Virus record (IMG/VR): IMGVR_UViG_3300010354_016854 | Location: 1-24,323 of that record | DNA: 24,323 bases | From: a virus | Direction: 5' to 3' (one strand) | Shown here: one piece after another, positions 2,720 through 13,521 of the stretch | Layout: each line of letters starts with the position of its first letter | Numbering within the stretch: position 1 is the first letter of the stretch | Notes under the pieces: model-generated | Database searches by the model: none | The model's input: the letters and a program-made list of their open reading frames with translations, nothing else | Told to the model about the DNA's origin: nothing | Position numbers and translations under genes: made by a program

Positions 2720-2751
2720 GGATTACCAAAGTTGTTAGGATTATAGATGGG

Positions 2752-2771
2752 GTTCGATTCAGGAGTCGAAC
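2752..2771 (+). promoter_or_regulatory. Hairpin just upstream of the endonuclease gene
   Basis: An 8-bp stem (GTTCGATT / AGTCGAAC, one T-G wobble) with loop CAGG abuts the TAAATA motif at 2772. In T4-like phages, hairpins often sequester early translation of homing endonuclease genes, but here the hairpin lies 5' of the predicted transcript start. It could act only on read-through RNA or as a protein-binding site. Confidence 0.4.
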
Positions 2772-2777
2772 TAAATA
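2772..2777 (+). promoter_or_regulatory. TAAATA late-promoter-like core, 5 bases before an ATG
   Basis: The octamer ACTAAATA ends 5 bases before the ATG at 2783. It matches the T4 and cyanophage late-promoter core. There is no Shine-Dalgarno sequence between the motif and the start, and this is one of seven such sites in the window. Confidence 0.5.
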
Positions 2778-2782
2778 ACTGT

Positions 2783-3415
2783 ATGTTCTATACAGTCTAC
2801 AAAACAACAAATCTTATCAACGGAAAAATCTATGTAGGTCTTCATATCACAGAAGACCTCAACGATGACTATTTAGGTAGCGGCACCCAAATTCGTGCCG
2901 CTATTAAAAAATACGGAAAAGAGAACTTCAAACGAGAATACATCAAAGTCTGTGAAAGTCCAGAAGAGATGTATAATTTGGAAGCAGAAATAGTTAATGA
3001 AGATTTTGTAAAAAGACCCGACACTTATAATATGAAAACAGGTGGAACAGGGTCCTGGTATCATGTAAATTCAAATTCAGAAGAAAAAAGAAAGAGTAGC
3101 AGTAAGGGCGGTAAGAAGCAAGCACAAAACCCAGATAACCCTTTTTACAGTAAAGAATGGCAAAAGAATTTTAATTCTATGAATAACCCGGAAATTGTTA
3201 AATCGATTGGGGCAAGGGCAAATACTCCAGAGGCAATAGCGAAGAAAAAAGAAACCTGGAAGAAAAACGGTAGAGGCAAAGGAGAGAAGAATTCTCAATT
3301 TGGAACTTGTTGGATTTATCATTCGGAGCAAGGAAATAAAAAGATAAGTAAAGAAGATCTTGACAAGTTTTTATCTTTAGGTTATATTAAAGGTAGGAAG
3401 ATTATTGCTGTATGA
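2783..3415 (+). CDS. GIY-YIG homing-type endonuclease
   Basis: The 210-residue protein opens with the GIY-YIG nuclease core: YTVYKTTNLINGKIYVG at residues 3-19, then LGSG near residue 33, a helix with KYGKENF, and the catalytic-type Glu region (YNLEAEIV near residue 69). The rest is Lys/Asn/Gly-rich, with repeats resembling NUMOD-type DNA-binding modules (KSIGARANTPEAIAKKKETWK near residue 135). This organisation is typical of free-standing phage homing endonucleases such as T4 Seg proteins. I chose the ATG at 2783 over the extension to 2747, because the GIY motif starts immediately after it and TAAATA lies 5 bases upstream. The gene directly abuts the tmRNA acceptor piece, so the target may lie in or near the tmRNA gene. 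Confidence 0.88.
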   Translation: MFYTVYKTTNLINGKIYVGLHITEDLNDDYLGSGTQIRAAIKKYGKENFKREYIKVCESPEEMYNLEAEIVNEDFVKRPDTYNMKTGGTGSWYHVNSNSEEKRKSSSKGGKKQAQNPDNPFYSKEWQKNFNSMNNPEIVKSIGARANTPEAIAKKKETWKKNGRGKGEKNSQFGTCWIYHSEQGNKKISKEDLDKFLSLGYIKGRKIIAV

Positions 3416-3659
3416 AGTGAAGTGAAACAGGTCTTGGACCCGGGGGCAGAGCCCGGCACCTCCACCATAAACATTTTGACACAGAGTGTTTATGCCGGGG
3501 GTGACACAGATTCGACAGGGCAAAGAGTAACAGAGTGGACAGCACGTTAGATGACGAACGTTAATCGCATAAAATTAATAACCGCAAACGACGAGTTATT
3601 CGCATTAGCCGCTTGATCGGCACGCTGAGGTAGGTATTACCAAGAAACAGAAAAATGCC
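3410..3659 (+). ncRNA. ssrA: Circularly permuted two-piece tmRNA
   Basis: tmRNA rescues stalled ribosomes by entering as alanyl-tRNA and then templating a degradation tag. Here the tRNA-like 3' half comes first. The acceptor piece ends in ACCA at 3464-3467, with a T-stem CCGGG/CCCGG (3440-3444 with 3452-3456) around a non-canonical 7-base loop GGCAGAG. A 29-base spacer with a TAAACA/TGTTTA hairpin follows. The coding piece begins at 3497. Bases 3497-3503 (GGGGGTG) pair with 3457-3463 (CACCTCC) to rebuild the 7-bp acceptor stem, and the third pair is G-U, the alanine identity element (G3-U70). The hallmark GATTCGAC is at 3509-3516. The 5' limit of the acceptor piece is approximate. Host SmpB and RNases are presumably needed; no smpB is seen here. 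Confidence 0.93.
3584..3616 (+). CDS. tmRNA proteolysis-tag reading frame
   Basis: The resume codon GCA at 3584 opens a ten-codon frame ending at TGA 3614-3616. It encodes ANDELFALAA, preceded by the typical AATAACC context. The LAA-type hydrophobic end is the usual ClpXP/ClpAP degron, and the AND start with the FALAA end is close to betaproteobacterial tags such as ANDERFALAA. The tag is read from tmRNA after trans-translation, not from a normal mRNA. Confidence 0.92.
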   Translation, partial: ANDELFALAA

Positions 3660-3687
3660 AATAGGGTCTTCGGACCCTATTTTATTT
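3660..3687 (+). terminator. Terminator of the tmRNA gene
   Basis: A perfect 9-bp stem AATAGGGTC/GACCCTATT is closed by the stable TTCG tetraloop and followed by a T-rich run (TTTATTTT). It ends the tmRNA transcript just before the next gene. Confidence 0.9.
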
Positions 3688-3701: not shown

Positions 3702-4457
3702 ATGATTTTATACGAAAACATTACCAGTCCGTTAAAATATCATCCAATAAAATTTGGTGACGCTGAAATTAAAAGTGAAAAAGGGTATGATTTTGATTTA
3801 TTGGTCAAAGGTGAAAAATGGTTAGCCTACGATAGTAGACCTATTGATTTTAAATCAATGTATTGTTCTGCCGCAACTGAAGTTTTTTTAGAAATAAATT
3901 TAGGATATGGCACAGTTATTACCACTGGATTAGGATTAGGTATAAAAGAAACGTTGCTCGCTAACAAACCCGAAGTTGATCAAGTTATTGTCTATGAAAA
4001 GAATTTAGATGTTATAGAAATTTTTAAAATTTTCTGTCAAGAATCTAATTACGATTCCCGTAAGATAAAAATAATCAATCAGGATGCAGATTTAATGTCT
4101 GGTCTATCAGCTGATTGTATTTTTATAGATCATTTTGAAAACGAGTCGTTAGACGTAATTGAAAACAGAGCTAGAAAAATTTCCAATTCTAACACTTGCA
4201 GTCTTTTTTGGTATTGGACGGCTTGGAACAGTTATTTTGTTGATATCATGAAATTGAAACAACCAGTTTCTCAAGAATCATTTATAAAATGGTGTCTATC
4301 TAAAAAAATAGACAATTTAATTTCTGAAATTCCAAATGACATCTTTCAAGAGGCTCATAAATTATATCTTGCCTTTACCTCCCATCCAATGGGAAAACAT
4401 CAAGAGCTTGATCTGCAAAGAGAAAAAATCAGAAAGTTTTTCAAAAGAAATACTTAA
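3702..4457 (+). CDS. Class I SAM-dependent methyltransferase-like protein
   Basis: The 251-residue protein has a Rossmann-type core in its middle: TVITTGLGLGIKETLL (residues 71-86) reads as methyltransferase motif I with a Gly-x-Gly-x-Gly loop. It is followed about 20 residues later by VIVYEKNLDVIEIF, where the Glu would bind the SAM or nucleoside ribose. IIDQD-like and IFIDHF strands follow (about residues 125-138). The arrangement resembles the spermidine-synthase branch. No catalytic or target-recognition motif (such as NPPY) is visible, so the substrate is unknown. The C-terminal third is helical and basic. The start is fixed by the ATG at 3702, preceded by TAAATA and lacking a Shine-Dalgarno sequence. 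It stands alone between the tmRNA terminator and the porin promoter. Confidence 0.68.
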   Translation: MILYENITSPLKYHPIKFGDAEIKSEKGYDFDLLVKGEKWLAYDSRPIDFKSMYCSAATEVFLEINLGYGTVITTGLGLGIKETLLANKPEVDQVIVYEKNLDVIEIFKIFCQESNYDSRKIKIINQDADLMSGLSADCIFIDHFENESLDVIENRARKISNSNTCSLFWYWTAWNSYFVDIMKLKQPVSQESFIKWCLSKKIDNLISEIPNDIFQEAHKLYLAFTSHPMGKHQELDLQREKIRKFFKRNT

Positions 4458-4575: not shown

Positions 4576-5460
4576 ATGAAGAAGATTTTATTAGCTGCAT
4601 TATTAGCTGGACTTACAACTACCGCCAGCGCACAAGTTGTTCTATCTGGAAAGATTGGAACAACATTAGACAGAACAGAAGTTGGTGCAACAACTAAGAC
4701 AGGGTTCGTAAACGATCCCACTAGTAATATTGCTGTATCAGCATCTGAAAGAGTTGGTGCTCTCGGTTTCCGTGCAGTGGTTGAAACTAGTCTTTTCGGT
4801 AACAATGAAAATCTTGGCACCGAAACTAGATTAGGTGATCGTCAAAGAACAGTTGGTTTTACATTTAAGAATGTTGGTGTCGATGTTGGACGTAATGTTC
4901 ACAGTCATTTCTTAAATATTACCAAACACGATCCATTCTCTACTGTTTATGGTAGTATTGCAGGTGATATTCACCCGTTACATGGTCTGCGTATGAGCAA
5001 TGCTGTCTTTACACATGCTCATGTTACAAAACAGGCACAGGTTAACTATGAGCGCACTCAAGGTGAAACAGTAGAAACTACTGTAATGGCCGGTAGCGGT
5101 CAAGTAGGACCTTTGAACGCAATGGTAAGTCGTTTCGAGCGTGGAGAAGTTAAAAGCACAGTAGTAAGTGCAGGCGCTAATCTTGCTGGAAACAAGCTAA
5201 CTGCTACCTATAGTGAAAATCAAGGCCCTGCATCACATAACGGTGTTACAGTTAATGCGATGCGAGATTTAGGTCCTTGGACTCTAAAAGCTAGTTATGG
5301 TAAGACTAACACCGACGTTAAAGCCTATGCTTTAGGTGCCGTTTACAATTTTAGCAAACGAACAGAAGCAGGTCTAGCTTATCGTAATGTAGATAGAAGT
5401 AGTGTTCCATCAACAGGCGATATCAGTCAGGTTGGTTTTGGTCTAACACATCGATTCTAA
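4576..5460 (+). CDS. Outer-membrane porin (betaproteobacterial Porin_4-like)
   Basis: The 294-residue protein carries a classic Sec signal peptide (residues 1-19, cleavage after ASA). The mature protein, near 275 residues, is made of alternating amphipathic strands (for example VVLSGKIGTTLDR, LGFRAVVETSLFG, WTLKASYGK, KAYALGAVYNF) and ends in GFGLTHRF, with the C-terminal Phe recognised by the BAM complex. This is the layout of betaproteobacterial general porins, though shorter than their usual 330-400 residues, so some loops or strands may be trimmed. It has a strong Shine-Dalgarno sequence (AAAGGA) and a near-consensus sigma70 promoter. It probably inserts in the host outer membrane during infection, perhaps altering permeability or replacing a receptor porin. 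It could also be a recent host acquisition. Confidence 0.87.
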   Translation: MKKILLAALLAGLTTTASAQVVLSGKIGTTLDRTEVGATTKTGFVNDPTSNIAVSASERVGALGFRAVVETSLFGNNENLGTETRLGDRQRTVGFTFKNVGVDVGRNVHSHFLNITKHDPFSTVYGSIAGDIHPLHGLRMSNAVFTHAHVTKQAQVNYERTQGETVETTVMAGSGQVGPLNAMVSRFERGEVKSTVVSAGANLAGNKLTATYSENQGPASHNGVTVNAMRDLGPWTLKASYGKTNTDVKAYALGAVYNFSKRTEAGLAYRNVDRSSVPSTGDISQVGFGLTHRF

Positions 5461-7144: not shown

Positions 7145-7150
7145 AATTGA

Positions 7151-7168
7151 TATTTATTTTATTAAATA
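7151..7168. promoter_or_regulatory. Back-to-back TAAATA late-promoter-like cores
   Basis: Leftward TAAATA (7156-7151, 6 bases before the ATG at 7144) and rightward TAAATA (7163-7168, 5 bases before the ATG at 7174) are separated by only 6 bases. The whole intergenic space is 29 bases, so both genes must be driven from this palindromic element if they have their own promoters. Confidence 0.5.
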
Positions 7169-7173
7169 TTGAT

Positions 7174-7740
7174 ATGGAGAACATAGAAAGTTTAAAAGGA
7201 TATCTAATAGCTGCACACCCTAAAAGATCAGATTCTTTACTAAAAAAAGGTGTGATATTAATCATTGATCAAGATTATACCGGCAGTATTGGTCTGCAGA
7301 TTAACAAACCAATGGTAAATTCTCCTAACTTGTCTGGTGTTATGCATGGGTTAGGTATTACCTATAATTCAGATACACCACTGTATTTTGGTGGTATTGA
7401 AAACACAAATAGGATAATTGTAGTTCATTCTACTGATTGGTCATCATCGGGCACGACTAAAATTACTGATGACGTGGCAATAAGTAATGATATTAGTGTG
7501 TTAGCTGCTATTTCTGCAGGTAAAGGCCCTAGCAAATTCAGAGCTATAGCCGGTTATACTAGATGGTTGCCTGGCCACTTAGAAAGTGAAATAGACGGTG
7601 ACCCACCATTTCATGATATTAATACTAGCTGGAGTTACATTCAAGCAAATGAAGATCTAGTGTTTGCTACATCAGGAGCAGATCAATGGCACCTTACATT
7701 AGAGCAAAGTGCCAAAGCTCAAATAGCAACGTGGTTTTAA
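7174..7740 (+). CDS. YqgE/AlgH family protein
   Basis: The 188-residue protein matches the full YqgE/AlgH (DUF179) domain. The opening LKGYLIAAHP corresponds to the family's LKGYFLIAMP. GSIGLQINKPM matches GAMGLVINRPL, then PLYFGGIENTNRIIVVHS and the characteristic AIAGYTRWLPGHLESEI (family LGYAGWGPGQLE-E). The bacterial family was linked historically to alginate regulation, but its biochemical role remains uncertain; phage copies are unusual. The ATG at 7174 is chosen because the domain starts there, with TAAATA 5 bases upstream; the frame itself opens earlier at a TTG (7147). It overlaps the 3' end of gp41 by 4 bases tail-to-tail. Confidence 0.87.
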   Translation: MENIESLKGYLIAAHPKRSDSLLKKGVILIIDQDYTGSIGLQINKPMVNSPNLSGVMHGLGITYNSDTPLYFGGIENTNRIIVVHSTDWSSSGTTKITDDVAISNDISVLAAISAGKGPSKFRAIAGYTRWLPGHLESEIDGDPPFHDINTSWSYIQANEDLVFATSGADQWHLTLEQSAKAQIATWF

Positions 7741-11386: not shown

Positions 11387-11948
11387 ATCCCCAACTTAAT
11401 TCTTCACAAATTAAATTCATCTGAACTACAACAGCAGCAGCATAAGCAGTAGCATGTGACTTCTTAAAGTAATATTCATCACCTTCAGGTTTAATCCAAA
11501 CCTCGTTCATCACCGTAGTCCAATCTTTCCCAATCAGATAGCGTTTCGCAGGGCGTATCATAGCCAAAACTGCCGCTAGTTGGGGTATCGTTTTTGGTTT
11601 CATTTCTCTTAAGATCGAACCATGTCCGTTGACGTGAAAGAGCAAGTTGACGAAATCGTCCTGTTCCAGTAAATCCCATAATGGCTCCGTATTCAATAAT
11701 TCATTTAAATGTTCTTCGTTACGAATTTTTTTATATACACTAACATTTAGAAAATCAATCTTAAAGTATCCGCGTTCTTCTGCTTCCTTGTAATTGATGC
11801 TAGCAGCTCCTGTAATAGAATTGAAAGGTATGTTGTGAACATATACTCCTGTGTTATGTCTTCGACCGTCTTCTAAACTTGCCGGAATGTGTCTAATGAT
11901 ATCGAGAATTTTATTTCTGTCAGCAAAGTCGATGTCGATGTCAGGCAT
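11379..11948 (-). CDS. Miniature DnaE-like (Pol III alpha-related) protein
   Basis: The protein has 189 residues, against 1,000 or more for bacterial DnaE. It starts directly at the C-family polymerase motif: PDIDIDF at residues 2-8, whose Asp3 and Asp5 correspond to E. coli alpha D401 and D403. HNTGVYV follows (31-37; DnaE HAGGV), then GYFKIDFLNVS (60-70), whose Asp65 matches D555 of KFDFLGL. LAAVLAMIRPA (124-134) resembles the fingers' ALFRPGP, and YYFKKSHATAYAAAVV (159-174) resembles FNKSHAAAYALV. The PHP, most of the palm, thumb, OB and tau-binding regions are absent. Function could be regulatory, a nuclease, or residual polymerase; activity is unproven. It overlaps the upstream gene by 8 bases. 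Confidence 0.8.
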   Translation of the reverse strand: MPDIDIDFADRNKILDIIRHIPASLEDGRRHNTGVYVHNIPFNSITGAASINYKEAEERGYFKIDFLNVSVYKKIRNEEHLNELLNTEPLWDLLEQDDFVNLLFHVNGHGSILREMKPKTIPQLAAVLAMIRPAKRYLIGKDWTTVMNEVWIKPEGDEYYFKKSHATAYAAAVVVQMNLICEELSWGFM

Positions 11949-12378
11949 TTTGAGTCCAGTTTTCTAGTATTTTACTTGAACTATTAATTTTGTCAATCCC
12001 ACCTACTCCAAATACGAATTCAACATCTGGCCAACCTACTTCTGGTATGTTGTGCGCATTTCTATCTCCGCCGTTTGCAAAAATAATTTTTTTCTTTTGT
12101 GGAAAGATTTGTTTAACTTTCCAAATTGCATTATTGGCAGTATCATCATCGTCGTTAAATGTAATTACCATATCTACCATTTTGAGATTTTGTATAATCA
12201 ACGATCTTTCCCAGTTTGGCATAAAGGCCTTGCCTTTTTTCCTTCTTAGCCAATTATCTGAATTTACACCTACAACTAAAATGTCACCTAATTTTTTAGC
12301 ATCAGTAAAGTAATGGATATGACCACTGTGAAGAGGATCAAACCCTCCTGTAACTAAAACAATTGTTTTTTCTTTCAT
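11941..12378 (-). CDS. Cytidylyltransferase-like protein
   Basis: The 145-residue protein has the complete small nucleotidyltransferase signature. TGGFDPLHSGHIHYF (residues 10-24) carries the HxGH metal/nucleotide motif (His17, His20). VVGVNSDNWLRRKKGK and ERSLIIQNLKMVDMVI follow, then FANGGDRN (about residues 99-106) and the closing SSSKIL. The family includes glycerol-3-phosphate cytidylyltransferase and the HldE adenylyltransferase, and the length suits a stand-alone enzyme activating a phosphorylated sugar or polyol. The gene overlaps the HldE-like kinase by 4 bases (ATGA) and the DnaE-like gene by 8. It is the second such transferase within 2 kb, so two different activated products may be made. 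Confidence 0.85.
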   Translation of the reverse strand: MKEKTIVLVTGGFDPLHSGHIHYFTDAKKLGDILVVGVNSDNWLRRKKGKAFMPNWERSLIIQNLKMVDMVITFNDDDDTANNAIWKVKQIFPQKKKIIFANGGDRNAHNIPEVGWPDVEFVFGVGGIDKINSSSKILENWTQNA

Positions 12379-13157
12379 ATAACCTCTGTTAGTTTAGGTG
12401 CGTAGTTTCCTCTGTGCTTTACGCTTTCGCTTGCTGCCTTGATAGCTAATTCAATCGCCTTGTCTATATCTTTACTTTCTAGATAACCATAGACTAAAAA
12501 TGCAAGAAAGGTATCCCCTGCACCACAGACATCTGCTACATCTACTTTAGGTGCTGCGTAATGTTTCAAACTATGCATAGCACCATTTTCTCCATTTGTA
12601 ACAATTAAACCTTTTTCATTCTCTGGAACAGAAATACATTTGTTATATTCGTAAAAATTTATTTTTATAAAAGCTCCTGTGAATCTCTTTAAATCAGTTT
12701 TCTTTGTATCAATGAAAATAGGTTTAGTGGGATTCTCAACAATCAACTTTTCAATTTGTTCATAGGTTAGAAATCCTTTATTATAGTCAGAAATAACAAT
12801 TGCATCGTAGTTATGAACACTACGTAACATTCCTAATCTACCAGACCAAGAAGGAATTTTAGGTTCGTCGTCTACTCTTAGAAGATGTTGACCTGATCTT
12901 TTATCAATATACCTAATTTTCTTAATTTTTTTATCATTGCTAATAAAATCAACATCCTGCTCTAATGCTTCAAAATTTTTCTTTACATTAGCGGCCATAC
13001 CAGGTGTTGTAAAATTTTCTTGAATTTTTAAAATAGGAACAGGCGCTTCTGGACTAAGACGCTCACAAGACCCTATATAGTATTCATCTTCGCACCTATC
13101 CCCTATCAACAATATCTTGAATTTTTTGGGTGCTGGAGTATTTGTTAAGTCTGTCAT
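12375..13157 (-). CDS. HldE-like D-beta-D-heptose 7-phosphate kinase (PfkB family)
   Basis: The 260-residue protein aligns with the kinase half of HldE/RfaE (about 315 residues). LLIGDRCEDEYYIGS (16-30), RLSPEAPVPILKI (34-46), and PGMAANVKKN (53-62; family PGGAANVAMN) are followed by KKIRYIDKRSGQHLLRVDDE (about residues 81-100), DAIVISDYNKGF, and the phosphotransfer motif VCGAGDTFLAFL with catalytic Asp (about residues 208-219). It is shorter than usual by some 50 residues, lost mainly around the lid and middle. It should phosphorylate heptose 7-phosphate at C1 to heptose 1,7-bisphosphate. It overlaps the adenylyltransferase-like gene by 62 bases, the two functions of HldE thus being split. 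Confidence 0.85.
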   Translation of the reverse strand: MTDLTNTPAPKKFKILLIGDRCEDEYYIGSCERLSPEAPVPILKIQENFTTPGMAANVKKNFEALEQDVDFISNDKKIKKIRYIDKRSGQHLLRVDDEPKIPSWSGRLGMLRSVHNYDAIVISDYNKGFLTYEQIEKLIVENPTKPIFIDTKKTDLKRFTGAFIKINFYEYNKCISVPENEKGLIVTNGENGAMHSLKHYAAPKVDVADVCGAGDTFLAFLVYGYLESKDIDKAIELAIKAASESVKHRGNYAPKLTEVI

Positions 13158-13521
13158 AAAATAAAATCTGTTTACAGTGTTCTGAACCTATTATAGGTTT
13201 ACCTTCATAATCACTACCCTTGATCATAATGTCAGGTTCAAAATTTTTTATAAAATTACGTAGATCGTTGTCAGTATCAAAAATATCTACCCTATCTACA
13301 TATTTTAAAGAAAATAAAAGATTGGCTCTTTCATATTCTGTATTGTAAGGTCGTTTTGGACCTTTTAATTCTTTAACTCTTTGATCGCTATCTATAAGAA
13401 CATATACAAAACTATTTTGAAATGATCTTGCATAACCTAACAATCTAAGATGTCCTAAATGTATAACATCAAAAGTTCCATTAACTACTATTCGTAACTT
13501 ATCTTCAGTTCCCTGTAACAC
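13096..13521 (-). CDS. HldE-like D-glycero-beta-D-manno-heptose 1-phosphate adenylyltransferase
   Basis: The 141-residue protein carries all family landmarks: VVNGTFDVIHLGHLRLL (12-28) with HxGH at His21 and His24, ERANLLFSLKYVDRVDIFD, IMIKGSDYEGKPIIG (about residues 98-112), and YSSTQKIQDIV at the C-terminus (family STTxII). It is the size of the HldE second domain alone. It would convert heptose 1-phosphate and ATP to ADP-heptose, a precursor of LPS inner core. The GTG start at 13521 is chosen: no ATG is available before the HxGH motif, and AGGAGAT lies 8-9 bases upstream. It overlaps the cupin by 17 bases and the kinase by 62. The true substrate could be another sugar phosphate. Confidence 0.85.
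   Translation of the reverse strand: MLQGTEDKLRIVVNGTFDVIHLGHLRLLGYARSFQNSFVYVLIDSDQRVKELKGPKRPYNTEYERANLLFSLKYVDRVDIFDTDNDLRNFIKNFEPDIMIKGSDYEGKPIIGSEHCKQILFYDRLNKYSSTQKIQDIVDRG

Follow-up and report, generated by a model that had tools for sequence, protein, structure and literature searches.

A permuted tmRNA gene with an apparently mosaic sequence in a T4-like jumbo phage

Structure and predicted function of the gene

The stretch of viral DNA analyzed here (24,323 nt, hereafter called the window) is a 24.3-kb fragment of a T4-like jumbo phage and carries a complete circularly permuted (two-piece) tmRNA gene at positions 3400-3684 of the plus strand. Judging from its sequence, this gene is likely functional (with a probability that we estimate at about 0.8) and would provide the phage with an RNA working in trans-translation together with host factors. 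The initial annotation had proposed such a gene in a phage; it proved to be genuine, and every feature described was found at the position given. Only the assigned range (3410-3687) has to be adjusted: the gene does lie there, but its start should be placed nearer 3400, the 5′ strand of helix P2 being located at 3407-3411. The covariance-model search with Infernal and Rfam that had been suggested as a check gave 135 bits for RF01850 beta_tmRNA (E = 2e-41, cut-off 84) and 130.6 bits for RF04321 tmRNA_permuted (E = 1e-25, cut-off 47), compared to 98 bits for the alpha_tmRNA model RF01849. Furthermore, ARAGORN called a tmRNA* (permuted) whose tag was read as ANDELFALAA, and, when folded in silico, the sequence lies 2.95 standard deviations below shuffles (z = -2.95).

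All the elements are on the plus strand, and the acceptor piece comes first. According to the sequence and to the covariance-model alignment, it includes the 5′ strand of P2 (GCTGT), which pairs with ACAGC at 3539-3543, the T arm CCGGG-GGCAGAG-CCCGG (3440-3456) and the acceptor 3′ strand CACCTCC (3457-3463), and it ends with an encoded ACCA (3464-3467). It is followed by a 29-nt spacer (3468-3496), which contains an inverted repeat, (CA)TAAACA...TGTTTATG, and is devoid of ORF. The coding piece begins at 3497 with the acceptor 5′ strand GGGGGTG (3497-3503), forming seven pairs whose third is G-U, i.e., the intact alanine identity pair that had been reported. Downstream are found the hallmark GATTCGAC (3509-3516), the tag frame GCA...GCT TGA (3584-3616), which encodes the ten-residue tag ANDELFALAA (ANDExFALAA type) and a TGA stop, and the tetraloop terminator AATAGGGTC-TTCG-GACCCTATT with its T-rich tail (3660-3681). 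The usual tmRNA T loop is UUCGANU. The one of the window, GGCAGAG, is atypical, a point that was initially passed over; this atypical loop also serves Alphaproteobacteria.

From these elements, we infer the transcription, processing, charging and tagging activity of the RNA, as well as its benefit to the phage, as follows. A host-type promoter located just upstream would drive the synthesis of a single precursor, from which tRNA-processing enzymes, including the RNase P of the host, would cut out the 29-nt spacer, leaving a two-piece RNA held by the acceptor stem and P2. The candidate promoter is a sigma70-type match (TTGACA-17-TATATT, 11/12, positions 3360-3388 of the plus strand), the best of 10 sites where 7.9 would be expected at ≥9/12; it falls in the upstream segment modelled in RF01850. 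The alanyl-tRNA synthetase of the host (AlaRS) would charge the RNA by means of the G-U third pair and ACCA, and the charged RNA would then enter stalled ribosomes with host SmpB and switch them to the ANDELFALAA frame, so that the ribosomes would be released and the product marked for ClpXP-type proteases. No smpB was found in 20 tmRNA-bearing phage records and therefore the phage tmRNA would depend on host SmpB. The benefit would probably be that ribosomes are kept free while phage nucleases cut mRNAs; the ribosome recycling during infection that had been put forward is plausible.

Constraint on the gene and its genomic neighbourhood

Scans of viral sequences revealed 146 tmRNA-like loci with 7/7 acceptor pairs, and no locus with five or six pairs, in a parsing that did not require pairing; the remaining parsed loci have at most four acceptor pairs and mostly correspond to anchor offsets. 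Every full-stem locus has G-U as its third pair (146/146). The pattern of the first scan partly imposes this pair but the second scan, based on the tag, does not, and G-U was found there in 59/59 parsed loci (selected for full pairing). In the subset of 43 loci carrying an ANDExFALAA tag, both strands vary at pairs 4, 5 and 6, and pairs 1, 2, 3 and 7 are invariant. When the relatives are taken from the scan performed independently of the tag, their tags differ from that of the window mainly by synonymous codons; for example, the tag of locus L028 shows five synonymous and no other changes. It was also observed that positions 54/58 of the T loops of phage split tmRNAs are either T/A or G/G, mixed combinations never being seen even though the parsing allowed them.

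The gene is overlapped at its 5′ end by an apparently full-length gene encoding a GIY-YIG (Seg-type) homing endonuclease (2747-3415, plus strand). This ORF matches Pfam GIY-YIG (23.8 bits for a cut-off of 22.6, 5.5e-5) and PHROG 314 (homing endonuclease, 1.6e-40), and tblastn aligns residues 13-219 of its 222 residues with phage homing endonucleases. Like the Seg-type GIY-YIG endonucleases of T4, it belongs to PHROG 314 with near-full-length similarity, but it differs from them by its location directly 5′ of a tmRNA gene that it overlaps: the codons at its end, ATT GCT GTA TGA, coincide with the conserved 5′ end of the tmRNA up to 3415, and its 3′ end contains the best promoter match of the region. 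In the viral contig L005, which has no GIY-YIG gene, a promoter-like sequence (TTGACT...TATAAT, recognized by eye) directly precedes the tmRNA. This arrangement would most simply be explained if the endonuclease gene had inserted next to the 5′ end of the tmRNA gene. Seg enzymes encoded beside the T4 tRNA genes have been proposed to affect the spread of those genes and, by analogy, the endonuclease may affect the spread of the tmRNA. A general association between tmRNAs and homing endonucleases was considered and rejected: no second GIY-YIG was found among 82 neighbouring proteins (25 commonest families listed), the commonest neighbour being a PD-(D/E)XK exonuclease (20 among the 82).

This overlap, together with the patchy occurrence of the gene among relatives and its mosaic sequence, could suggest a passenger that spreads with the adjacent endonuclease or by recombination without any current benefit to the phage. 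We consider this improbable: every functional element of the gene is intact, stems show compensatory changes and tags silent changes across relatives, and a GIY-YIG gene beside a tmRNA was seen only in the window within the same set of neighbours. Slightly less probable still is a decoy, i.e., an RNA that would compete for SmpB, AlaRS or stalled ribosomes and thereby block the trans-translation of the host. There is a precedent, since phage DS6A has a tmRNA-like gene without tag, reported to inhibit the tmRNA of Escherichia coli (PMC11915505). However, a decoy would not need an intact tag frame, stop codon and post-tag structure, all of which are kept in the window, where the tag ends with ALAA; moreover, the tag codons of the relatives change mostly silently. 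A functional tmRNA working in trans-translation is therefore the reading that we prefer.

The right two thirds of the contig encode T4-type helicase, primase, UvsW, UvsX, gp32, structural protein and terminase, and UvsX is 60-68% identical to that of jumbo phages of 337-490 kb. The helicase has at least 598 relatives, the best 80 of which are 74-82% identical to it; among these best 80, it is flanked by an AlgH-like gene in 73 and by a PHROG-36119 gene in 60. Two viral contigs, L199 and L297, carry a permuted tmRNA just beyond the same helicase/AlgH/PHROG-36119 block, and L364, a 354.7-kb member of the same clade, carries one at another place. The conservation of this block in viral contigs and the location of the tmRNA beside it in L199 and L297 indicate that the gene belongs to phage DNA and not to a chimera. 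Misassembly of host DNA with the phage contig, which might be evoked by the bacterial-looking genes found nearby (porin, DUF454), is made very improbable by a gene order (helicase, AlgH, PHROG-36119) kept in dozens of viral contigs, by the tmRNAs adjoining this block in L199 and L297, and by the closely similar acceptor piece located beside a different porin in the viral contig L005. Only 4 of 50 helicase relatives, many of which are fragments, hold a permuted tmRNA and, therefore, the tmRNA would be dispensable in this clade.

Some other genes of the window deserve mention. The AlgH (DUF179) gene (7147-7740) adjoins the replicative helicase gene. At 11941-13521, neighbouring kinase and nucleotidyltransferase ORFs resemble a split HldE (heptose kinase/adenylyltransferase) and sit beside a short DNA-polymerase-like ORF. 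The tmRNA of the window and that of L005, whose acceptor pieces are closely similar, both have a porin-like gene in their vicinity (4576-5457 in the window and 6476-7534 in L005). The porin of the window has no tblastn match among 50,697 phage records and no match at 1e-5 in 150 genomes of one bacterial order (a search run without positive control), and few or no relatives were obtained for the ORFs at 3702 and 1204.

Prevalence and apparently mosaic sequence of the phage gene

The initial annotation considered phage tmRNA genes, and permuted ones in particular, as rare; this does not hold. A previous study found a tmRNA in 402 of 18,146 phages, the two-piece form accounting for 53 of the 133 distinct phage tmRNA structures (PMC9004378), and another one gives a list of 79 distinct tmRNAs from phages, whatever their form (PMC11915505). 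Our two pattern scans of IMG/VR each retrieved at least 120 loci, and ARAGORN called 100 of the 126 loci with ANDExFALAA tags as permuted. The cut-off of RF01850 was passed by 14 of the 24 records tested, large viral contigs among them. Permuted tmRNAs are also carried by cultured phages: Stenotrophomonas phages Marzo and DLP6, Xanthomonas phage Rb1 and Sinorhizobium phage Phosso. Those of Marzo, DLP6 and Phosso score 119, 136.8 and 113.3 bits, respectively, with RF04321 (all above its cut-off), and those of Marzo and DLP6 also exceed the cut-off of RF01850. They are permuted like that of the window but have other tags, and that of Phosso further differs by its alpha type and its much longer spacer. 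The tmRNA of Marzo was already annotated; those of DLP6 (KU682439.2, 102838-103059) and Phosso (PV764938.1, 349596-350198) were unannotated. The tmRNA of the window thus adds to the permuted tmRNAs already reported from phages, where they are common.

The betaproteobacterial type initially put forward for the tag fits the P2/coding part of the gene but not its tRNA-like core, which is of alphaproteobacterial type. Over the 53 nt that make up the T arm, the acceptor strands and the hallmark, the identity is 96% with the Alphaproteobacteria retrieved, a value partly due to selection since these bacteria were picked with a pattern covering 27 of the 53 positions, and 66% with phage L137; for the P2/coding part, it is 82% with L137 and 28% with the same Alphaproteobacteria. 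L137 is the nearest phage relative of this tmRNA and is paired with it in the whole-gene tree (96/91, with a bootstrap that had not settled). The arm and acceptor pattern matched 19 contigs in a collection of 84,980 species from GTDB, all from Alphaproteobacteria wherever the title is more specific than "proteobacterium"; the absence of matches in other lineages is not a product of the selection by pattern. The viral contig L005 shares the T arm of the window. Taken together, the tmRNA of the window looks like a mosaic of an alphaproteobacterial-type tRNA-like core and of a P2/coding part nearest to those of phages, a convergent change of the T arm being a possible alternative. Such a mosaic suggests that these two parts of the gene may each have their own evolutionary history.

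Compared to RF01850 beta_tmRNA, the gene shows a full-length match with the same order of pieces, tag type, P2, acceptor stem and upstream segment, but it carries the GGCAGAG T loop. Its score of 135 bits contrasts with those of the main group of bacterial members (mostly 220-311 bits), and it encodes ACCA, whereas an encoded CCA is mostly missing from the parsed examples of this bacterial group. Methylophilales phage Melnitz is also a T4-like phage with a permuted tmRNA (ssrA), but this tmRNA belongs to the alphaproteobacterial type and is associated with a glutamine riboswitch (PMC9004378), whereas the coding part found in the window is of a betaproteobacterial-like phage type.

In the bacterial order that we sampled, the beta-type form was present in 4 of 150 genomes, and a high-scoring one-piece tmRNA in 52 of 60 genomes. 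Bacteria are generally considered to have evolved the two-piece tmRNA on just a few occasions. Since the beta-type two-piece form is scarce in the order sampled and frequent in phages, phages may be a reservoir of this form of the gene. Permuted tmRNAs of a second bacterial group (L296, L518-L522), patchily distributed, were also found in 6 of 61 genomes from a single family. Most parsed members of this group have a TTGAT-type spacer end and an encoded ACCA, like the phage genes, and an exchange with phages is possible. One tree places this group with the main bacterial group and another one among phages; given this disagreement, the hypothesis of a phage origin of the bacterial beta form was dropped.

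Spacers of related phage tmRNAs

In several relatives, the spacer reaches about 80-280 nt and starts, right after ACCA, with a Shine-Dalgarno sequence followed by a start codon. The spacer of the window (29 nt) is too short for a peptide gene, and this arrangement is seen in relatives, not in the window. In the two unbiased scans, an ORF of 18 aa or more, preceded by a Shine-Dalgarno sequence and closing 1 nt short of the coding piece, was found in 9 of the 72 spacers of at least 60 nt, and seven of these nine ORFs are hydrophobic; shuffles keeping the last eight bases gave 0.6 such ORFs and 0.04 hydrophobic ones. A scan for TCCACCANAAGGAGATTNNNATG retrieved 110 loci, of which 103 parse as tmRNA. 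In this set, which is enriched because TCCACCANAAGGAGATTNNNATG selects start signals but not the peptide, 66 of 70 distinct spacers contain an ORF whose stop codon leaves a single nucleotide before the coding piece; a membrane segment is predicted for each of these ORFs. The terminal TTGAT also closes non-coding spacers and one bacterial spacer, so that the stop codon of the spacer ORFs would reuse an existing signal. No convincing protein family match and no cultured-phage match were obtained for the spacer peptides tested, and we found no report of them in the open-licence literature.

Overall, it seems somewhat more probable than the contrary that phage split tmRNAs form a large modular group, in which alpha and beta cores would be exchanged and the spacer could carry cargo, the gene of the window being a member with an alpha core and an empty spacer. 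Under this modular reading, a single precursor would serve in many relatives as the source of a ribosome-rescue RNA as well as of a membrane protein; if expressed, the spacer peptides would represent a novel means of nesting a gene within a tmRNA gene. Spacer ORFs were observed in L191, L224, L210, L179, L142, L390, L395, L425, L434 and others, most of them predicted to encode single-pass membrane peptides of 21-29 aa, or of 34-47 aa with a WSICADI motif. One group of 24-aa peptides shows a pN/pS of 0.17 over 66 pairs, and the 354.7-kb phage L364 has an ORF of 80 residues in the same spacer arrangement.
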